A DNA stretch of 64,000 nt from a virus: IMG/VR virus record IMGVR_UViG_3300042391_001456, positions 38,754-102,753 of that record, one strand, 5' to 3'. The notes beneath the pieces are model-generated. The model saw only the letters and a list, made by a program, of their open reading frames with translations, had not been told where the DNA came from and searched no databases. Shown one piece after another: positions 3 through 36,858 of the stretch. A program made the translations under genes and the position numbers. Within the stretch, counting starts at the first letter, position 1. The number at the start of each line of letters is the position of its first letter.

Positions 3-452
3 GATAATAAAATATCAGTTAAATTATCATTTTCGGTTGAGACATATTATCCAGCCTGGAGATCTGATAAATTTGCAGATGTTGGTTATGTTATAGATGG
101 TGGTGACGGTATGTCTGATTTAAATGGTTATAATAATAGTGGTGTTGTTCCTTGGTATATGAGCGGTACGCCTGATATTGATGAGCCTACACCATTTCCA
201 TTACCGGATACAAATTTACCAAAACCACTAAAACCTAGAACTATACCTACTGGTATAACCGGATCACTTTGGCCTAAATTAATAGGTACTTCCGGTTCTT
301 CCGGTTCTTCCGGTTCTTCCGGTTCTTTTGGTACTTCTGTTTTTCGAGATGAAAATAATGGATATTCAACAAACACAATATCCACCAATCCAAAAAGATC
401 AAAGTGGTATGATAATATACTTAGAGCTAGAGAGGAATTTAGAAAAAGGTAA
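3..452 (+). CDS. C-terminal part of a probable virion protein (5' end outside window)
   Basis: The reading frame is open from the first bases of the window. The first in-frame Met is at 111, so the gene most likely starts upstream and only its last ~149 codons are visible. The product is rich in Gly, Ser and Pro and has a short (GSS)n tract encoded by a 9-base tandem repeat around 291-324. The tract resembles the GTSG linkers of the tail fibre at 26069-30238. The C-terminus is basic (WYDNILRAREEFRKR). The composition suggests a structural or fibre-associated protein, but the family is not recognised. Confidence 0.7.
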   Translation, partial: DNKISVKLSFSVETYYPAWRSDKFADVGYVIDGGDGMSDLNGYNNSGVVPWYMSGTPDIDEPTPFPLPDTNLPKPLKPRTIPTGITGSLWPKLIGTSGSSGSSGSSGSFGTSVFRDENNGYSTNTISTNPKRSKWYDNILRAREEFRKR

Positions 453-25285: not shown

Positions 25286-26035
25286 TTATTCAAATTGTTT
25301 ATCATAGGATTTGTTTTTCATTTCAACAACTTTATCAACATACCCATTTCTTCTAAGAAGTTTAAAAACTAAATTACCAATTGAAAATTCACCACTTTCA
25401 CTTTCTAATCCACTTTTTCTAGACTCTTTAATTTTCTTCCAAGCTTTATCAATTTTCTCTTTAAATTTAGCATAATCTTCTTCCATATCCAACTCATCAA
25501 TTGATGACATGATTGTTTCCGCTTTCATTCTGATGAGTTTTTCATCTGGTTCAAATTCTATCTTTTGTGGTTTTTTTATCCACTCATCATGTAGAAGTGA
25601 ATAAACACCACCCATTCTACCAGCACTAATACTTTTTTGTAAGTCTTCACTATCTTGTATAGCAACTTCTACATCATATCCCTTTATTTTGATATCATGT
25701 TGTGAGTTCCATAGTTTTTTTGCATAATCACACAATTTCTCGGATATTTCAGAATTATCATCTATATCACTAAAATTAACAATGATATGCAAATCATAAT
25801 CTGAATATTTTTCAGACCAGTTATAATTACAAAGAGATCCACAAAGAACTATATCAATTATATCAGTTTTAATATCTGTTCCCTCAAAGAAATCTGTTCC
25901 TATTTTTAGGAGTTTTTCTCTAATATCATCATTTAAATCAAACTCATCCCAAACCTTGTCGTTAAGTTTATCTTTTAAATAGAAAGATTTAATTGGTTCA
26001 AAATCATCTTGTACAAATTCAAAATATTTTTTCAT
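25286..26035 (-). CDS. Pol-beta-superfamily nucleotidyltransferase with leader
   Basis: A 249-residue protein starting MKKYFEFVQDDFEP, a leader-like N-terminus. The nucleotidyltransferase core is VLCGSLCNYNWSEKYSDYDLHIIVNF: Gly66-Ser67 and Asp79/Asp81, followed by a third acidic strand (YDVEVAIQD). This is the MNT/aminoglycoside-nucleotidyltransferase style. A helical C-terminus (YAKFKEKIDKAWKKIKESRK) follows. It may transfer AMP or another NMP to a protein, RNA or small molecule; in MNT-type toxin-antitoxin systems the target is a protein or tRNA. If the leader works, it would be delivered with the DNA. Confidence 0.7.
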   Translation of the reverse strand: MKKYFEFVQDDFEPIKSFYLKDKLNDKVWDEFDLNDDIREKLLKIGTDFFEGTDIKTDIIDIVLCGSLCNYNWSEKYSDYDLHIIVNFSDIDDNSEISEKLCDYAKKLWNSQHDIKIKGYDVEVAIQDSEDLQKSISAGRMGGVYSLLHDEWIKKPQKIEFEPDEKLIRMKAETIMSSIDELDMEEDYAKFKEKIDKAWKKIKESRKSGLESESGEFSIGNLVFKLLRRNGYVDKVVEMKNKSYDKQFE

Positions 26036-26068: not shown

Positions 26069-29000
26069 TCAAGAATATAAAGTACATGCAAATCTAATTC
26101 CTGTAGCTGTTCCAGTTGGAGTTGCTGGCATTGTTGTTATGTTATTTGTATTTGTTATACCAAAAAGTAAATCAGAAATTCCTAAATCATAAACAGTTCT
26201 CCAACTTGTTCCACTTGGATAATATCCAACAACCAAATCTTCACCAACTGATAGGTTTAAATTTTGACCAACTTCTGGAGTTAATAAAATTTCATTAGAA
26301 CCGACTCCACAAACTGCACTACCCTGTCCAATTAGTGTCATTGTTCCACCCAATTTTCCTCTATATAATCCAAATAAAACGGTATCTGATCCAGAAAACC
26401 CCCACAATTTAACTTTAGATACGATTCCACTAACTTCAGAGATAGTTTGATAGTAATATTGAGTAGTGGCTGCTGTTGGAGCTAAATCACACTGACTAAC
26501 ACTCATTGGTGAAAATGAAATATTTAACTTAGACCAATATGCATTACCTAAACTATCAGTTTTTAATACATAGTCACTAACCGCACCTGTTGGTAATTTT
26601 AAACCCAAAACAGATGCGGTTCCAATAACATTTAATATGTTGTTATTAAATGTTAAATTTGATTCAACTGTCGCATTTGGATAAGATCCATTTAGAGTTA
26701 TGATTCCATTATCTGTTGATCCTGTTAGTGTTAGTAACCCAGAAGTTCCACTTGACCCAGAAGTTCCACTTGACCCATTGATCCCATCAATTCCCTTCAC
26801 ACCACTAGTTCCATCGATTCCATTAACACCAGATGTACCATTGATTCCACTAACACCATCAACCCCATTTACACCAGAAGTTCCATTTGACCCAGTTGCT
26901 CCTAGTTGAGTGTACATAACTTGTTGAGCAGTTAATATAATGGACGGAACCGCAGGTCTATTCGGGGTTGATTGTGTTCCAGTAGGTAATATTGATATTG
27001 CGGTATCAGGTGAACTCCAGTATAATTGTATATAATCATTTGATTCTACTGTGTTTATAAAATTCCAAGATGCTATTGTAGTTGATTGACCAGCTATATT
27101 AAATGATGTATTTGATTGTGTTATATATTGTCCATTTTTTGAGAACCATATATCGACCAATCCAGACGCGGAATTAGACTTATTAAAAACCGTAGAGAAT
27201 TGAATATTATAAGTCCCTGACCTACTAAACACCATTTTAGAACCATTTGATAGAGAGACACCATTAGCCTCATATGTAGAGTTTATGTACATCGGCATCG
27301 CAGTACTAGCTGTTAGATTAAATTGATTTGTAGTATCATAAAAAGACCCGTAATAACCCAAAGCACCACCAGCTCCATTTACACCACTCGAACCCGATGT
27401 ACCATTCTGACCACTTGTACCGGATGTACCTGTATTTCCGGAAGTTCCAGAAGTTCCACTACCACCACCTGGATTCGTTGTTTGATAATAAGTATTACCA
27501 TTATTATCAACAACCATATATCTTGTTAAACTTGATGTAGATCCAATTCCTGCAATTGTTAAAGTATTCGTATTTGTTCTACCTTGACCAGTTACGCTAA
27601 ATGTAACCCCACCGCCATTACCACTTTGTACTTCTATTACGTTATCAGAATCAGAACCACTACCTCTCTTAAATGTAACAGCACCTAATGTCGAATTAGT
27701 AACTATTTCAGGAGTTGAAGAGTTATCATAAGCTTGTTGTAATGTCGTTGTTGAAAGTCCACCAGAACCACCTAATATTTCTCCAAATTTTGAAACAAAA
27801 TTAAAACGAGCTTGTGTTGGATCTGATAAGTTTGTAGCATTTTTATTAATTGATAAAATACCAATAAGGATACCATTATCTCTATTATTTACATATTCAA
27901 CAAATAACTCTTCTTGTGTTGCGACAATTGCTTCTGATAATGTTCCATAAACTTTTTGACCATATTGAACTCTTATTAAACCTGTTGGAAATAAATATAT
28001 TCTTTGATTGGTAGATGCGTTTGATCCACCACCAATAATGGTTCTAACACCACCATTATCATAATAAGCAGGATCTATAAAATTTGTATTTGAAAAGGTA
28101 CCACCTGTTTGTGTTCTATAAGCAAATGTTACTGGTGATTGCCCTGATAAAGTAATACTATTTGGATTTAACTCATTAGTAACCCAATTTATACCATTAC
28201 CCCAAAGAGTACCCGCTGATGTATTAAACTCTAAAGTTGTACTATGAGCAGATGGTATAATACCTTGATTTATAAGTTTAATTGGAGTCCATAAATCTCT
28301 CAATGATGAAATAGGAGATACATCATGATCGACTGTATTATTAACATTTAATATGGTTTGTCTATCAGGATGTACTACTTTACCTAAATAAATATTTTGT
28401 CTTCTTTCTTGTGGAGTTGGAAATGTTGTTTGTAAAATCAATGATGAACTTGATGTTAATAAAACATAAGTACTATCAGCGGTATTTAAATAAGGCGTTG
28501 TTATACTTGTAGTGCCACCATAAATAACATTTTGAACATCTGGTTTGGTAGCTGAATCACCAGTATTATTAACAATCCAACCAGAAGCACTTGCTACCGT
28601 AAATGTAGTTGTACTAGTTCTAGTCATTCCCAAATAATGATATACACCACTTGAAATAACATTACCTTCTAATATATTTCTCTCAATATCAGTAAGAGTT
28701 AAATTTAAATCTTCATTATTAATCTCAACTTGAATAGTACCAATTGTTGAACTATTGCTCGTAACGTACCCTATTTGATTTGTTCTTGATGAGAATTTTA
28801 ATGAATCAGTAGAATTTACAAATCCACCAGGAACTATATCAGATAAATAGATAATATCACCAACTGAATATGATGATAGATTAAGTCCTGATAAAATACC
28901 AGCAGCAAGTGCAATACCTTCCGAATTATTGGGTATATCAATATAAGCCAAACCAATAACTTGTTGATTTGTTGTGTGTAAACTTGCTAACGGTAAAGAA

Positions 29001-30238
29001 ACACTAGGAATACCATTATATGATGATTGTATTTTAAGTGCGGTTCCTTTAGGTATAATTGATCCAGTATTATTATACACTCTAACATATCTTTTAGTAC
29101 TTGGATGATTTAATAACCAATTTGAACCATTACTTTCAACAGTAAGTGTATCATAAAATGCTAAGTTATATGATGGTAAATTATCAATTAATTGAGAAGA
29201 AGTAGTTTTTATTGTGATAATACCAGTTCCACTATTTTTAATGATAAATGTTCTACCTGATATTCCAACTGCTGTTGGTAAAGTAACATCAAATGTACCA
29301 TTAACCTCAATATAATAATCGATATTTGTTATTGAATATGTTGATGTTTTGTAAACGTAGTTAGTAGAAACACTTGTTCCTGATGAACCACTAGTTCCGG
29401 AAGTTCCATCTAAACCATTGATGCCGGAAGTTCCATTTGTCCCATCCAATCCATTGATGCCGGAAGTTCCACTTGTTCCATCTAACCCATTGATGCCGGA
29501 AGTTCCATTTGTTCCATCCAATCCATTGATGCCGGAAGTTCCACTTGTTCCATCTAACCCGTTAATACCGGAAGTTCCACTTGTACCATCCAACCCATTG
29601 ATGCCGGAAGTTCCACTTGCCCCATCCAATCCATTGATGCCGGAAGTTCCACTTGACCCATCTAAACCATTAATGCCGGAAGTTCCATTTGTTCCATCTA
29701 ACCCATTGATGCCGGAAGTTCCACTTGACCCATCTAAACCATTAATGCCGGAAGTTCCATTTGTTCCATCTAAACCATTAATGCCGGAAGTTCCATTTGT
29801 TCCATCTAACCCATTGATGCCGGAAGTTCCACTTGTTCCATCTAACCCGTTAATGCCGGAAGTTCCACTTGTCCCATCCAACCCGTTGATGCCGGAAGTT
29901 CCTGATATTCCAATTAGCATTTGTTGCCAATGAGCAGTATCTATATCTGGTGAAGACCATGGTGATGATGGATTATCCGAAATACATAAATAAGCATTTC
30001 CGTTATAAGTAACAAAATCGTAATAGAAATACATCATAACAGAATCCCATTCTCCTTGAAAAATCATTGAAATTCCTGTTGATCCAGTTGGACCTTGTGG
30101 ACCAACGGAATATGATCCCGGTCCTAAATCAAGAGGATTTCCAAATCCATCATAGTATAAATTGGGAGAACCGTGTATTACTTGAACTATTCTACCATAC
30201 GTCGATGATACAGTTACTCCGGTAAAATCATAACTCAT
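26069..30238 (-). CDS. Long tail fibre with collagen-like repeats
   Basis: A 1389-residue protein. Residues 1-45 carry YGRIVQVIHG and YYDGFGN, shared with the tail-collar protein at 3885-4826. A short collagen-like patch (GPQGPTGSTG) follows, then a small carbohydrate-module-like domain (MMYFYYDFVTYNGNAYLCI). Next come 14 repeats of GINGLDG(T/S/A)(S/N)GTS over residues ~112-285. Long beta-rich shaft domains fill 300-940, with further GTSG segments near 945-970 and 1110-1180. The C-terminal ~200 residues, ending RFACTLYS, probably form the receptor-binding tip. Low-complexity Gly/Ser/Thr-rich triplets with flexible linkers suggest a trimeric fibre. It is preceded by a TAATATATA element. Confidence 0.85.
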   Translation of the reverse strand: MSYDFTGVTVSSTYGRIVQVIHGSPNLYYDGFGNPLDLGPGSYSVGPQGPTGSTGISMIFQGEWDSVMMYFYYDFVTYNGNAYLCISDNPSSPWSSPDIDTAHWQQMLIGISGTSGINGLDGTSGTSGINGLDGTSGTSGINGLDGTNGTSGINGLDGTNGTSGINGLDGSSGTSGINGLDGTNGTSGINGLDGSSGTSGINGLDGASGTSGINGLDGTSGTSGINGLDGTSGTSGINGLDGTNGTSGINGLDGTSGTSGINGLDGTNGTSGINGLDGTSGTSGSSGTSVSTNYVYKTSTYSITNIDYYIEVNGTFDVTLPTAVGISGRTFIIKNSGTGIITIKTTSSQLIDNLPSYNLAFYDTLTVESNGSNWLLNHPSTKRYVRVYNNTGSIIPKGTALKIQSSYNGIPSVSLPLASLHTTNQQVIGLAYIDIPNNSEGIALAAGILSGLNLSSYSVGDIIYLSDIVPGGFVNSTDSLKFSSRTNQIGYVTSNSSTIGTIQVEINNEDLNLTLTDIERNILEGNVISSGVYHYLGMTRTSTTTFTVASASGWIVNNTGDSATKPDVQNVIYGGTTSITTPYLNTADSTYVLLTSSSSLILQTTFPTPQERRQNIYLGKVVHPDRQTILNVNNTVDHDVSPISSLRDLWTPIKLINQGIIPSAHSTTLEFNTSAGTLWGNGINWVTNELNPNSITLSGQSPVTFAYRTQTGGTFSNTNFIDPAYYDNGGVRTIIGGGSNASTNQRIYLFPTGLIRVQYGQKVYGTLSEAIVATQEELFVEYVNNRDNGILIGILSINKNATNLSDPTQARFNFVSKFGEILGGSGGLSTTTLQQAYDNSSTPEIVTNSTLGAVTFKRGSGSDSDNVIEVQSGNGGGVTFSVTGQGRTNTNTLTIAGIGSTSSLTRYMVVDNNGNTYYQTTNPGGGSGTSGTSGNTGTSGTSGQNGTSGSSGVNGAGGALGYYGSFYDTTNQFNLTASTAMPMYINSTYEANGVSLSNGSKMVFSRSGTYNIQFSTVFNKSNSASGLVDIWFSKNGQYITQSNTSFNIAGQSTTIASWNFINTVESNDYIQLYWSSPDTAISILPTGTQSTPNRPAVPSIILTAQQVMYTQLGATGSNGTSGVNGVDGVSGINGTSGVNGIDGTSGVKGIDGINGSSGTSGSSGTSGLLTLTGSTDNGIITLNGSYPNATVESNLTFNNNILNVIGTASVLGLKLPTGAVSDYVLKTDSLGNAYWSKLNISFSPMSVSQCDLAPTAATTQYYYQTISEVSGIVSKVKLWGFSGSDTVLFGLYRGKLGGTMTLIGQGSAVCGVGSNEILLTPEVGQNLNLSVGEDLVVGYYPSGTSWRTVYDLGISDLLFGITNTNNITTMPATPTGTATGIRFACTLYS
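29395..29905 (-). repeat. Fourteen 36-bp in-frame repeats in tail fibre
   Basis: Units encode GINGLDGTSGTS and close variants. Units differ mainly at the T/S/A and S/N positions and by synonymous changes, as expected from recombination between repeats. Confidence 0.95.
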
Positions 30239-31392: not shown

Positions 31393-31408
31393 AAGGTCTC
31401 TTTTTTTA
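31381..31408. terminator. Bidirectional terminator
   Basis: Stem AAGAGACCTT / AAGGTCTCTT then T7, between the convergent genes ending at 31392 (+) and 31406 (-). Confidence 0.88.
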
Positions 31409-33724
31409 TATCATATATTCCAATTTTTTAACCCATCCATTTGATTTTAATGTGTTAATAATCATTTCACCAGTTATTGATTTTGTACATTCAAATTGTC
31501 TTTCTGTACCCTTGTAATCTGGACACCAATTCCAATCACCTGGATCAAACTTATGTCTATTGAAACATCCATTACAAACAGAATTGTTAAATATTCTAAT
31601 AACATTATCCCCTTCAAATTCAGATATTGGATCACTAAACCCAGATATTAAAACAATCGGAACATTTAATGACCATGCCAACCAACTAAGACCTGATCCA
31701 ATACCGATGAAAAACTCACATGATAACATAACATCAATAAGATTTTCCATAGATCCTTCTGGTAATTTAACAACACCATTTGGATAAAAATTACCCATGT
31801 AACCATCACCTTCTTTAGATAATATCATAACTTCATATCCTTGTAGATTTAGATAATCAACTACTTCTTGCCAACCATTTGAGTTATTCCAATATTTGGT
31901 TTGAGCAGTTGAATGGAATCCAATACCAACTCTTTTCTTTTTTTCTATTTTGATTCTATCCGGTCCAATATTCGCTTTAACATATTCAAAATCCAAACCC
32001 AATATATCAGCTGCTGTTTTACCAAGTGGCATTTTCTTAAAATCATTTGGATTTTTCACACTAGAAAATTCTCCATTATCATCATAATACCACCCAATAG
32101 AATACATAGCATATAAATTATTAACTGGAGTTCCAGGATCTACAAATTCTATATTTGGATATTTTTCTTTAAATAAATTGTTCATAAATGTTGAACATAT
32201 CATTTCACAATTCCATTTCTTTCTAAATTCTTCAATATATGGAAACCATGCTAATGTATCACCCAGTGATTTGGAATCTAAAGAAACATAAACTCTCTTA
32301 CCAGTTGGATTACAAACTTCATCATGTATTATCTCACCATCCAAATAAACAATACATCTCCATTCTTGAAAATATTTTTTATTTACTTTAGTCCACATAT
32401 TAGATTTTATGGTAGTTCTATATTCACATATATTTTCTGTGTTAAAGAATTCAACTAAAAATTCTCTATCTTCATTTGATATCACTTCCACAACAGGACC
32501 ATCTATATAATAGTTGATTATATTTATACTTTTATATTTCTCATTTAAAACTCTATTGGATTTTTCTATATTATCATAAAAATCCAATAATTTGGATTCA
32601 AAATCTCCCTTCTCAGTTGAGAATATAAAATTATTAATTTCATGAGCATCATTTATTTCCTTAACACAGTGAAATCCAACAACCTCACTTTTATCATAAG
32701 GTATAAATGATTGTGATGAGTGACCATATCCATATTTATTCATATCCAACAAACAAACTCCACTATCAGAAGATAGATATTCACTATTAATATGATTATA
32801 AAAAAACTTAACATCACTCAATTTCAAAACATTTACAAAAAACCAAAATGATTTAGGCTTAACTCCTAATTTCCACATTAAGCAATTTAATATCAATTCA
32901 TCATGCATAAATTCTAATTTTCTGATTGAATCTATTTCATTTGACTGGCAAATCTCATCCCATTTTTTAAATAAATCTTTATGAGATTTATTAAATATCA
33001 CAATGTTCGTAATACATTGTGGGTATTTTTGTTTTGGTAGATCCATTGTTTCGGTAAGAAGTGGACCTGGTATATAACTACCATGAGCAATTGTATAATT
33101 CCAGGCTCCTTTTTGGAAAATAGGACCATCTTCTATTTCATTCAGATATTTAAATGTCTCGTCAATATTTGGTCTAATTTGTATATCAGCATCTAAAAAG
33201 ACAACACCTCTATAACCCATTTCTAGTACATCTAAAAATATTCTAGGTTTTAAAAATTGCATAAATTGGTTATCATTCATATCACCATCTATATACATTC
33301 TCTTATTTGTTAAATTATAATATTCTAAATTAGAATCATAATTTATGGAGTAATGGTATATCTTTTCATCGGAGTATCTATCCAATCCTATTATTAATTG
33401 TTCAACCAATGGTTGAAATTTCTCATTTGAGAAAACAACATAACATTTTGATTTATCACCAATTTTTTTATTGAAAATTAATTTATGATTTGAGTATATT
33501 TTTAAATCAAAAACTTCATTTTTAACATTTTCATAAAAACTATGAATCGAAAAATTCAATGTTTTTATATCACCTGGCTTAAAATCTTCAACATGATTTA
33601 TTAAATTCAAATAGAATATATCAGTTAAAGTTATTAAACAATTCTCATAATAATTATTTGTTAGGTTTTCTATTTTTATAGAGTCATCAAACAACTCTAT
33701 TTTAAAATCTCTATTTCCAAGCAT
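31406..33724 (-). CDS. Two-domain glycosyltransferase: GT-A plus TibC/BAHT-like heptosyltransferase
   Basis: A 772-residue protein. Residues ~85-300 look like a GT-A nucleotide-sugar transferase with a DxD-type motif (VVFLDADIQIRP) and a helical KWDEICQ region. Residues ~465-765 match the bacterial autotransporter heptosyltransferase (BAHT; TibC/Aah) family: SLGDTLAWFPYIEEFRKKW, VGIGFHSTAQTKYWN, FIGIGSGLSWLAW, and a C-terminal cysteine finger with C717, C720, C734 and C746 (NGCFNR, WNWCP, FECTKSI). TibC uses such a finger to bind iron. Targets of BAHT enzymes are repetitive Ser/Thr-rich surface proteins, so the phage's own collagen-like Ser/Thr fibres are candidate substrates. It overlaps the next gene by 14 bases. 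Confidence 0.78.
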   Translation of the reverse strand: MLGNRDFKIELFDDSIKIENLTNNYYENCLITLTDIFYLNLINHVEDFKPGDIKTLNFSIHSFYENVKNEVFDLKIYSNHKLIFNKKIGDKSKCYVVFSNEKFQPLVEQLIIGLDRYSDEKIYHYSINYDSNLEYYNLTNKRMYIDGDMNDNQFMQFLKPRIFLDVLEMGYRGVVFLDADIQIRPNIDETFKYLNEIEDGPIFQKGAWNYTIAHGSYIPGPLLTETMDLPKQKYPQCITNIVIFNKSHKDLFKKWDEICQSNEIDSIRKLEFMHDELILNCLMWKLGVKPKSFWFFVNVLKLSDVKFFYNHINSEYLSSDSGVCLLDMNKYGYGHSSQSFIPYDKSEVVGFHCVKEINDAHEINNFIFSTEKGDFESKLLDFYDNIEKSNRVLNEKYKSINIINYYIDGPVVEVISNEDREFLVEFFNTENICEYRTTIKSNMWTKVNKKYFQEWRCIVYLDGEIIHDEVCNPTGKRVYVSLDSKSLGDTLAWFPYIEEFRKKWNCEMICSTFMNNLFKEKYPNIEFVDPGTPVNNLYAMYSIGWYYDDNGEFSSVKNPNDFKKMPLGKTAADILGLDFEYVKANIGPDRIKIEKKKRVGIGFHSTAQTKYWNNSNGWQEVVDYLNLQGYEVMILSKEGDGYMGNFYPNGVVKLPEGSMENLIDVMLSCEFFIGIGSGLSWLAWSLNVPIVLISGFSDPISEFEGDNVIRIFNNSVCNGCFNRHKFDPGDWNWCPDYKGTERQFECTKSITGEMIINTLKSNGWVKKLEYMI

Positions 33725-35261
33725 ATATAAGTCCTCCTTTGTTTTCTATTGGATATTCACCATCCATAAATTTAAATTTATAATCATTAGTAGTTAATTT
33801 TTTAATTATCTCCAATATTTTATAATTATCATTATTATGATATTCAATTAAAAAATTATTCACTTTCAATAAATTATCATCTGATATTGTATTAAAGAGA
33901 TCATACTCAGCTCCCTCAATATCAATTTTCATTAAATCAATATAATCTTCATCAATATAATCCTCAATTAATGTATTTGGTGTTATACAACTAACTATAT
34001 TTTTAGTTCTATTTTCAACTTTATTATTAGCATCTATCTCTGATATACTAGATACCATAGAACAATCAGAATCTTCGAAAAAGTCTATCACACCATCATG
34101 TGAATAAATTGCCTGATGTATAACTTTATTATTTGAATTTTTATCAAAATTATTTTTTAATAGTTTTATCATCCTAGTATCAGCATCAACTAAATAACAT
34201 TTTATAGATCTTTCCATAAAGAAAATGCTGGATATTCCATAATTAGCACCCAAGTCAACAAAATTTCTAATTTTATCAAAATTTAACTCAGTATAAATTT
34301 TATAGAAATCGTTTAAATATCCAAATAAAAAATCTATATTTTCATTTTTATAAGTTTTAAACTTTTTACAAAAAACATGTTTGTAATCAAAATCATCAAT
34401 TAGTATATTTTTTCTAATATTATTATCTCCGATTTTTGTTTCTAAATAATATCCATTTCTATTATCAATTCCATTATTGAAAAATGGTGGAATAAACCAA
34501 TATATGTATCCTGATTTTAAATTAAAATTAGTATTATTATAAATACACAAATCCGTGTAATAATCAAATACTTTTATATGGAAATCTTCTATATTTGGAT
34601 TTGTATTTTTTAGATAAAATTTAGCATCATCTTTTGAATACCAAAACTCAATATCGTTATAATTATAATAAAGAATGTCTATTTTATTTGGTCCATAAAA
34701 TTCATATTTATCTTTGAAAGAATAAATTTTATCCAAAACTCCATTTTGTCTAAAGGAATATTCCCAACAATTCTCTAAAACAGTATTTAATGTAAACATC
34801 TCGTCGATAGTTCGATAAAAATTAATATTTTCTAATAAAAAATCTATTTTAGAATAAAAAGAATTTGTACAAATAATATTATCACCCCAATTACATGAAA
34901 CAAATTGATATTCATCAACTCTCCAATCTAAAAATCTATTAACATCATTTATCTCAACATCATAAGTTACTTTATAAGTCCATTCAATATCCTGATCTTT
35001 GAGATGTTTGATAGCCAATTCAATCAAATTACTTTCAGCAACTCCGTGTGAATATTTTCTATTATCGATTACATTCTTTGATTGATAAATATAGAAATCA
35101 CATAATTCCTGTAAGTCACTACTTATAGGCGAGTGACTTGATAATACTAAGTAATAATCTTCTTTACTTAGAGTCTCAATATTTTTTTTGAGTAAGTTTA
35201 TACTTTCCTCCGATGTATGAAAGTATGTTATTATAAAACCTATTTTAGTATCTTTCTTCAT
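33711..35261 (-). CDS. FkbM-family methyltransferase fused to a glycosyltransferase-like domain
   Basis: A 516-residue protein. Residues ~1-260 resemble a GT-A-like N-terminal domain (IGFIITYFHTSEESINLL, then SHSPISSDLQELCDF). Residues ~325-510 are a class I methyltransferase of the FkbM type: FVDLGANYGISSIFF as the AdoMet loop, CYLVDADTRMIKLL, and DLMKIDIEGAEYDLF as the family-specific motif. FkbM enzymes O-methylate sugars or polyketides. Likely it modifies the glycan built by the two flanking glycosyltransferase genes. It overlaps both neighbours by 14-17 bases. Confidence 0.8.
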   Translation of the reverse strand: MKKDTKIGFIITYFHTSEESINLLKKNIETLSKEDYYLVLSSHSPISSDLQELCDFYIYQSKNVIDNRKYSHGVAESNLIELAIKHLKDQDIEWTYKVTYDVEINDVNRFLDWRVDEYQFVSCNWGDNIICTNSFYSKIDFLLENINFYRTIDEMFTLNTVLENCWEYSFRQNGVLDKIYSFKDKYEFYGPNKIDILYYNYNDIEFWYSKDDAKFYLKNTNPNIEDFHIKVFDYYTDLCIYNNTNFNLKSGYIYWFIPPFFNNGIDNRNGYYLETKIGDNNIRKNILIDDFDYKHVFCKKFKTYKNENIDFLFGYLNDFYKIYTELNFDKIRNFVDLGANYGISSIFFMERSIKCYLVDADTRMIKLLKNNFDKNSNNKVIHQAIYSHDGVIDFFEDSDCSMVSSISEIDANNKVENRTKNIVSCITPNTLIEDYIDEDYIDLMKIDIEGAEYDLFNTISDDNLLKVNNFLIEYHNNDNYKILEIIKKLTTNDYKFKFMDGEYPIENKGGLIYAWK

Positions 35262-36858
35262 TATAAACTTTATCTAATATTGAATAACCAGCCGATTGTT
35301 TTGTCGGTGGAGTTTCAAATATTCCTATTTTATACTTATTTAACTTTTCCGAAAAAAGTAAATCAGTTACATTCCATTTTGAATTTCTATACATTTCATC
35401 AATTACGTCAAAACTCTTTTTAGGAATTAAATATGCATGTGCTCCATAAAAACCATTAACGGTCCAATATATCGAGTTTTTATCAATAATATTAACACCG
35501 TTATGAAACCCAAATGAAAACATCATCAAATCGGTTTTATTTAATATTTCACATGCTAACTTTACACTATCGACAAATTCTTTAGTTTCTACATCGATAA
35601 TAGCATCACATTCAAATATTAAAATATAATCAACATTATCATTCAATCCTCTATAAAAAGCATCTTTGTGAGCCAAATAACAACCATAATGACCCGGTGT
35701 TAGTTTACCCCCTGGTTCCATACTAATTTTATCAGGATACTCACATGTTTCTGATGGTGGTAAACTAACCCATCTTTTATTAACCAATGCTTTGTAATTA
35801 ATTCCAAATTTTTCCAATTTAGTTAATGATATTTGTGATTGAACTTCTCTCTCACTATCAATATCTGTTATCATATGATATGCTGAAATTTCTGATACTT
35901 TTTCATTTTTTTGAATATTCAATCCATTTCTTATCAATTCAACATTCATATTAATATCATTTGTTAAAAATTTAATATTTTTAAAATTTGAAAAATCCTG
36001 ACCATATGTTTTCAAGTTGTACATTAATACTGGTAGGTCATATGAAGTGGCTTCCAAAACTGATAGAGGTCTATTTTCCAATTTAGAAGTAAAGATAAAT
36101 AAATCAACACATCTATAAAATCTATGTAAATCAGATCTTTCTCCCCATATTTTACAATTATTAGGAGTATTCTCAATTAGAGGTTTCCAATAATCAACAA
36201 AATTATCTGCCATATTACCAAAGAAGTGAAACATAACATTATCACCTTCCATCTTTTTAGCATATTCAAATATTTCATGTTGATTTTTATTAAAATTGAA
36301 TAATCCAACATTCATAATATGTTTTTGATTGGGGTTTAACCCTAATTCAATTAAATTATTCTCTCTGTATAATTTAGAATCAATTTCAAACTCTATAACC
36401 TCTGAGAAATTAGATATTTCATTATACTGTGTCCAATTTATATTAGACACAAACATTGTTTTATCGGCTATAAATTTTTTATCATTTTTATTAAATCCAG
36501 TTCCGTGTGTTGTATCTGTTATATAAAAATTTAAATCGTTTTTCAAATCAACAAATATTGAATTTAATAAATCATGACTTACAAAAGTCTCTGGGAATTC
36601 TTCAAAATGAATAACTTTTGGTTTGATACTACTAATTAATGATAATATTTCATTTTTATTATCACTTAAAGTTATTAACCTATTACTTAATAAACTTTTT
36701 AACTCATTTTTTTGAACAACTAGTCTACCACCTGTAATATCATCCCATTCTATTAAATAGATATTCCACTTTTTTAAAAGAATTTTTATTTTTTTGAGTA
36801 AGAATTGTGGTAACCCACCAGTTGATAAGTGTGGTGTTATAATTAACATTTTATCCAT
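35245..36858 (-). CDS. Two-domain glycosyltransferase: GT4-like plus GT25-like
   Basis: A 537-residue protein. Residues 1-310 fit a GT-B group 1 glycosyltransferase (MLIITPHLSTGGLPQFLL, GLNPNQKHIMNVGLF, and ENRPLSVLEATSYDLPVL as the EX7E-type donor site). Residues ~320-537 fit a GT25 domain (LPS/collagen galactosyltransferase type): LTPGHYGCYLAHKDAFYRG, YILIFECDAIID and the C-terminal SAGYSILD. First gene of the minus-strand glycosylation operon. It probably builds a short glycan on a protein or on host/phage surface polymer. Confidence 0.8.
   Translation of the reverse strand: MDKMLIITPHLSTGGLPQFLLKKIKILLKKWNIYLIEWDDITGGRLVVQKNELKSLLSNRLITLSDNKNEILSLISSIKPKVIHFEEFPETFVSHDLLNSIFVDLKNDLNFYITDTTHGTGFNKNDKKFIADKTMFVSNINWTQYNEISNFSEVIEFEIDSKLYRENNLIELGLNPNQKHIMNVGLFNFNKNQHEIFEYAKKMEGDNVMFHFFGNMADNFVDYWKPLIENTPNNCKIWGERSDLHRFYRCVDLFIFTSKLENRPLSVLEATSYDLPVLMYNLKTYGQDFSNFKNIKFLTNDINMNVELIRNGLNIQKNEKVSEISAYHMITDIDSEREVQSQISLTKLEKFGINYKALVNKRWVSLPPSETCEYPDKISMEPGGKLTPGHYGCYLAHKDAFYRGLNDNVDYILIFECDAIIDVETKEFVDSVKLACEILNKTDLMMFSFGFHNGVNIIDKNSIYWTVNGFYGAHAYLIPKKSFDVIDEMYRNSKWNVTDLLFSEKLNKYKIGIFETPPTKQSAGYSILDKVYNEERY

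Follow-up and report, generated by a model that had tools for sequence, protein, structure and literature searches.

The closest described systems are the TibC and AAH enzymes (TIGR04414; PDB 4RAP and 4RB4), and in the open-access literature we found BAHT enzymes described only as modifiers of bacterial adhesins. Iron is bound in TibC by C339, C342, C358 and C370; residues also named for this enzyme are Asp110, Thr226, Lys230, Trp305, the thumb-tip pair Phe265/Val266, Arg286 and Pro300 (PMC4358343). Arg286 contacts the adenine and is reported to be highly conserved (PMC4358343). The same domain is already annotated in a large multi-domain protein of an uncultured Caudovirales phage ("Glycosyltransferase Aah/TibC", UniProt A0A6J5SVC1, the top BFVD match), so at the level of annotation its occurrence in phages was already known; this record is an annotation only, and no acceptor is proposed in the records or papers found.

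The window, meaning the whole stretch of 64,000 nucleotides analysed here, belongs to a 102,753-base virus record, and its source is a large freshwater-type phage. The capsid is 68–70% identical to capsids of 635–642-kb metagenomic phages. Weaker capsid matches to phages of Prevotella, Tenacibaculum and Chryseobacterium make a Bacteroidetes bacterium the probable host.

An earlier note had placed a phage enzyme with a TibC-type domain at 31406–33724 and left the strand unstated. The interval and its ORF are real, and the gene lies on the minus strand, running from 33724 down to 31406; the plus-strand frame of the interval is full of stops. The enzyme and its parts are as follows.

31406–33724, minus strand: GT-A-BAHT fusion enzyme, 772 aa (ORF, ATG start, profiles, model)
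31421–32488, minus strand: BAHT (TibC/Aah-type) O-heptosyltransferase domain, residues ~413–768, with N-terminal beta-barrel (TIGR04414, AF2, Foldseek)
31487–31576, minus strand: predicted iron-finger cysteines C717, C720, C734 and C746 (alignment with TibC; invariance in 51 viral relatives)
32258–32260, minus strand: predicted catalytic base Asp489, equivalent to TibC Asp110 (residue mapping onto TibC)
32645–33448, minus strand: GT-A domain, residues ~93–360, DxD at D178/D180 (AF2 model, GT6/GT8-like Foldseek matches, invariant DxD)
33461–33724, minus strand: N-terminal beta module, residues 1–88 (AF2 secondary structure)

Profile searches confirmed that the C-terminal domain belongs to the TibC/Aah (BAHT) family, as the earlier note had proposed, and not to an unrelated glycosyltransferase family. 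The NCBIfam model TIGR04414 (hepto_Aah_TibC) matched residues 436–760 with 273.4 bits (E=2.7e-81), well above its curated equivalog cut-off of 200 bits, whereas LPS heptosyltransferase profiles scored ~17 bits or less on the same protein (17 for LPS heptosyltransferase I). TibC (PDB 4rap) matched the phage enzyme by sequence with an E value of 1.1e-59. AF2 modelled most of residues 400–768 with pLDDT >90, and the model contains the N-terminal beta-barrel and the GT-B catalytic fold. In Foldseek comparisons, the modelled BAHT domain aligned with TibC over 377 columns (the TibC chain has 381 residues) at a TM-score of 0.85. The best 21 PDB matches of the model were all TibC chains, with WaaC next.

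The four cysteines are exactly at the positions noted earlier (C717-x2-C720, C734 and C746). They pair one to one with TibC C339, C342, C358 and C370, and all four are invariant in 51 of 51 dereplicated viral relatives, showing that the set is conserved. TibC Asp110, Thr226, Lys230 and Trp305 correspond to D489, T606, K610 and W681, which are, together with the cysteines, invariant in 41 viral rows. The two hydrophobic residues at the tip of the beta-hairpin thumb (TibC F265 and V266) are Y642 and M643 in the phage enzyme, and YM occurs in 40 of the 41 rows. Two TibC residues are not kept. Arg286 corresponds to L662 and is replaced in 40/41 viral rows, mostly by Val or Leu, while 7 of 16 cellular rows retain it; Pro300, which bears on stereoselectivity, corresponds to G676. 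Arg286 is a specificity residue and not a diagnostic BAHT residue. Because of its replacement, we filed the enzyme as a divergent BAHT branch, and with Arg286 and Pro300 both lost, donor specificity may differ from that of TibC.

These features also bear on an alternative role, known from other GT9 heptosyltransferases, in the synthesis or modification of LPS or of some other non-protein glycan. The enzyme's GT9 fold would allow such a role, as would GT4, GT25 and FkbM neighbours that resemble LPS and capsule enzymes and the second GT9 gene present in nine loci. However, the protein-specific features of TibC are kept (iron finger and hydrophobic thumb tip), the TIGR04414 score of 273 bits stands against 17 for LPS heptosyltransferase I, and the bacterial partner is a repeat protein gene. 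We consider an LPS role highly improbable.

The earlier note had described a GT-A domain with FLDADIQ fused to the BAHT domain, and this description held up. FLDADIQ starts at residue 176, placing the DxD at D178 and D180, both invariant in 10 relatives. Because the full-length model had too few alignment rows in this part, residues 1–403 were modelled separately (pLDDT 82). Foldseek matched this model to solved retaining GT-A enzymes, namely alpha-1,3-galactosyltransferase, blood-group GTA/GTB and glycogenin, with E ~1e-7 and low TM-scores of ~0.3–0.5 (normalised by target). No Pfam family reached its cut-off on the N-terminal part (best E=0.03). When the GT-A domain was used as an independent bait, it recovered 12 viral loci (from few distinct phages), and the BAHT domain was present in 12/12, fused in nine and encoded by an adjacent separate ORF in three (one phage). 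The model-based assignment of the N-terminus as a real GT-A domain stands.

The fusion gene comes third and last in a series of overlapping genes on the minus strand. The next minus-strand gene past the enzyme, beyond two small plus-strand ORFs, encodes a tail fibre. These neighbours, and one small distant ORF, are listed below.

35245–36858, minus strand: two-domain glycosyltransferase, GT4 (PHLSTGG type) plus GT25 (PF00534 9.9e-13, PF01755 1.1e-6)
33711–35261, minus strand: protein with FkbM-type methyltransferase domain (PF05050 1.1e-10; TIGR01444 above cut-off)
26069–30238, minus strand: tail fibre protein, 1389 aa, proposed acceptor (PHROG tail fiber 5.2e-54; Pfam Collagen 1.7e-35)
29372–29911, minus strand: main collagen-like GXY run of the fibre, residues 110–289, 60 triplets (motif count)
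27341–27466, minus strand: second GXY run of the fibre, residues 925–966 (motif count)
26732–26902, minus strand: third GXY run of the fibre, residues 1113–1169 (motif count)
111–452, plus strand: small ORF, 113 aa, with a short GTSGSSGSSGSSG stretch (ORF list, motif count)

The GT4+GT25 gene overlaps the FkbM gene by 17 bases, and the FkbM gene overlaps the fusion gene by 14, placing them in the same operon. The fibre contains 38 G[ST][ST]G motifs and 93 GXY triplets, in which X is mostly T and Y mostly S, N or D. The 113-aa ORF is a possible minor acceptor. No autotransporter or adhesin gene was seen within the window by ORF, Pfam or PHROG analysis. It should also be noted that beta-rich modules of ~80 aa at 33461–33724 (minus strand) and in the middle of 33711–35261 (minus strand) look alike. 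Such modules seem to go with the GT-A and FkbM domains, as the beta-barrel does with BAHT, and possibly share an acceptor-binding role. At 25286–26035 (minus strand) lies a gene for a conserved phage protein (phrog_36119) with a nucleotidyltransferase-like GS...DYDLHI motif; a protein of this type adjoins the enzyme in another viral locus (L008) as well.

To score repeats, we used the pattern GGNWSNWSNGGNWSNWSNGG with at least 5 hits. A strict DNA pattern for GTSGTSG was dropped because it missed real S-rich arrays (e.g. in contigs G002, G015 and G016), and PEVPEVP-type ORFs of low complexity, which shadow the repeats on the opposite strand, were ignored. Whole contigs were searched, since short loci from the GTSG scan were often without the enzyme (5/120 have it). 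Among 41 contigs of >34 kb picked by capsid alone, 18 carry the enzyme. G[ST][ST]G arrays were found in 16 of these 18 and in 5 of the 23 enzyme-negative contigs (Fisher p=2.5e-5; with the strict GTSGTSG pattern, 13/18 vs 7/23, p=0.012), although the p-values are only indicative, since contigs that share a capsid group cannot count as independent. In the two enzyme-positive contigs lacking arrays, the enzyme is cut by the contig end in one and lies 1.7 kb from the end in the other.

Contigs were also sampled by their repeats. The enzyme was present in 15/31 contigs of >=40 kb sampled by GTSGTSGTSG repeats, compared to 1/31 contigs of >=30 kb sampled by GPXGPXGPX collagen repeats (p=7e-5), the latter being a loose control that includes some chance or reverse-strand matches. 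Among the GPX contigs, a large G[ST][ST]G array occurs solely in the single enzyme-positive one (591 hits, against 8 in the runner-up). Thus, the enzyme follows Ser/Thr collagen-like repeats and not collagen-like repeats generally. It is absent from half of the GTSG-sampled contigs, some of which are fragments. The longest GTSG repeats reach ~700 motifs in one gene. Within individual named phages, LR756501 (735 kb) has the enzyme and 1,932 G[ST][ST]G pattern hits, and Microcystis phage Mel-JY01 has the enzyme and 94 repeat hits. Among named phages, the nearest relatives by capsid (LR756502 and LR745206) gave no enzyme hit and have 3 and 0 repeat hits, respectively; LR756504 is an exception to the pairing, with the enzyme and no repeats. 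In LR756501.1 almost all hits share a strand; a large array starts at ~103.5 kb, and the enzyme, at 580 kb, is distant from it.

The pairing also occurs in bacteria. Across 16 cellular genome assemblies, 264 of 297 four-unit array hits fall within the ~20 kb enzyme locus, where 1.9 would be expected by length. A repeat gene is present in 15 of 18 cellular loci and is within 200 bp of the enzyme in 10. One example of such a bacterial pair is the Methylomicrobium RS1 enzyme (L090:9821–11083) with the repeat protein encoded beside it. By inspection, the partner repeat proteins often look exported, and several look like lipoproteins. The Methylococcaceae isolates and gammaproteobacterial contigs do not look like phage contigs. 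Fused phage-like enzymes were also seen on contigs binned as archaeal or unclassified (L093, a Pacearchaeota MAG; L101, a Nitrosotalea MAG; and L102). GTSG tail-type proteins accompany the enzyme in L101 and L102, which look like phage contigs inside assembled genomes; L093 is probably one too.

Two possible targets had been named in the earlier note, the phage's own GTSG-rich fibre and host surface proteins. The first is backed by this strong, independent co-occurrence in phages and bacteria, and nothing found supports the second. Many phage glycosyltransferases act on host envelopes, and modification of host surface proteins or adhesins could alter the infected cell (superinfection exclusion) and not the virion. 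Furthermore, known BAHTs modify surface-exposed adhesins (PMC4358343). However, no adhesin gene is nearby, and the enzyme goes together with tail-fibre repeat genes located on its own contig and is rare in phages with collagen fibres lacking S/T repeats, making a host-surface target very unlikely.

Relatives of the BAHT domain are numerous in metagenomic viruses (at least 586 in IMG/VR), while in a phage collection of 50,697 records only four have a detectable relative. A search of 85,000 species genomes gave only 18 matches by the patterns used; these patterns were phage-derived, so TibC-like bacterial enzymes are under-sampled. The 51 dereplicated viral enzyme proteins carry GT4 domains in 28 cases and FkbM-type methyltransferases in 7 (Pfam), and a PHLSTGG-motif GT4 is present at 42/51 enzyme loci vs 3/80 capsid loci. 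In a tree, the repeat-linked phage and cellular enzymes form one group, split from TibC with 100/98 support. Outside this group are TibC and a TibC-like enzyme of Paraburkholderia phenazinium (L103:9797–11026) that lacks the cysteines, all four iron-finger Cys columns being replaced or gapped.

Not every phage BAHT goes with repeats. Repeats accompany 27 of 32 fused enzymes and 5 of 19 stand-alone enzymes, and 19 of the 51 viral loci have no repeat gene in their sequence, some of them being truncated. Most repeat-less loci belong to one derived subclade of stand-alone ~386-aa enzymes, mostly without arrays, which rules out a universal pairing. This subclade comprises L048, L056, L058, L060, L061, L068, L070, L073, L078, L082 and L083, and several of its enzymes adjoin tail proteins of 1,900–2,500 aa. 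Tail-fibre regions collect cargo genes, and the array-less subclade beside large tail genes would fit an enzyme that is such cargo, unrelated to the repeats. Against this, the pairing of enzyme and repeats recurs in bacterial chromosomes, the enzyme is nearly absent from GPX-collagen phages, and the closest named relatives are without both enzyme and repeats. Hitch-hiking is accordingly given little probability.

For the donor sugar, HldE-like kinase and adenylyltransferase genes adjoin the enzyme in 8/51 viral loci vs 0/80 capsid loci. The two HldE halves are the top profiles of these partner genes, which form an overlapping pair, with scores below the curated cut-offs (122 vs 345 bits for TIGR02198 and 100 vs 181.5 bits for TIGR02199). 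A pair beside the enzyme points to ADP-heptose as the donor. Split pairs lie directly downstream of the enzyme at L008:11429–12569, L068:11083–12202 and L073:9504–10635, each comprising a heptose-1-P adenylyltransferase-like and a short (~248 aa) heptose-7-P kinase-like protein. Neither the window nor the 38 kb upstream yielded an HldE pair, so the donor in this phage must come from the host or from an unsequenced phage region. If the acceptor and enzyme are as proposed, the first sugar could still come from another nucleotide sugar. Loss of the TibC adenine-contact and stereoselectivity residues would fit such a donor, as would HldE-like partners that fall under curated cut-offs and are missing from most loci. 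Equivalents of T226, K230, W305 and D110 are, however, invariant, and the best profiles of the partner genes are both HldE halves, in an overlapping pair adjoining the enzyme. A non-heptose donor is a minority possibility that we take seriously but think unlikely. As a separate observation, a second GT9 heptosyltransferase gene with a partial BAHT profile match lies a few kb from the enzyme in 9/51 viral loci, e.g. L036:6799–7761 (minus strand), L071:7010–7945 (plus strand) and L054:7825–8811 (minus strand), and is perhaps a chain-extending enzyme.

Given its family membership and adjacency to repeat genes in phages and bacteria, the enzyme's most likely task is to coat the tail fibre of its own phage with sugar. 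The likely explanation, held with good though incomplete confidence, is that it O-heptosylates Ser/Thr of the fibre repeats and that fused and neighbouring enzymes extend and methylate the glycan. Inside the infected cell, the C-terminal GT-B domain would draw its heptose from ADP-heptose that the host or, in some relatives, phage HldE-like enzymes produce. It would place this heptose on Ser/Thr of the Gly-Ser/Thr-Ser/Thr (collagen-like GXY) repeats of the fibre at 26069–30238, acting in the cytoplasm of the host prior to assembly, in the manner of TibC on its adhesins. The GT-A, GT4 and GT25 domains would then elongate the first sugar and FkbM would methylate or cap it. The outcome would be a heavily glycosylated, mucin-like fibre stalk, with stiffness, protease resistance, adhesion or shielding as candidate roles in the virion. 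For acceptor, donor sugar, order of extension, oligomeric state (a dodecameric ring in the BAHT family), chemistry and virion role alike, this is what we infer.

If true, this would account for the great length of GTSG repeats in many large phages, allow heavily glycosylated phage fibres to be predicted simply from sequence, and identify a protein-glycosylation pair in bacteria. A broader generalisation is favoured somewhat less firmly, though still on balance. There would be a widespread, so far undescribed branch of iron-finger heptosyltransferases with Gly-Ser/Thr-Ser/Thr collagen-like repeats as dedicated acceptor; in large phages of aquatic habitats, where it is joined to glycosyltransferase and methyltransferase modules, it would build mucin-like glycosylated tail fibres, and in bacteria it would glycosylate small exported repeat proteins. 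Neither the acceptor link, also in its bacterial form, nor the fusions nor the HldE-like partners turned up in the open-access literature, although they may still be published. What is new is the likely acceptor.

Glycans on phage structural proteins are described for mycobacteriophage virions (Freeman et al. 2023, as cited in PMC12619734). In the present phage, the predicted acceptor is a repeat-bearing fibre. The mycobacteriophage sites are reportedly the C-termini of capsid and tail tube subunits and not repeats, and other enzymes are said to be involved. BclA, a collagen-like exosporium glycoprotein, carries O-glycans on its collagen-like repeat stalk, as proposed here for the fibre, but its repeats are GPT-rich, its glycan is rhamnose-based and its transferases are unrelated. 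With TibC and AAH, the phage enzyme has in common the GT-B heptosyltransferase fold, N-terminal beta-barrel, catalytic Asp, Thr/Lys/Trp donor contacts, hydrophobic thumb tip and four-Cys iron finger. Unlike them, it is phage-encoded, is fused to a GT-A domain, lacks an autotransporter partner and does not keep Arg286 and Pro300. It forms a sister branch of the TibC branch and does not fall within it. While TibC acts on beta-helical autotransporters, the phage enzyme, judged by sequence comparison, would work like a BAHT on another, predicted acceptor, the Gly-Ser/Thr-Ser/Thr repeats of GTSG-repeat proteins.
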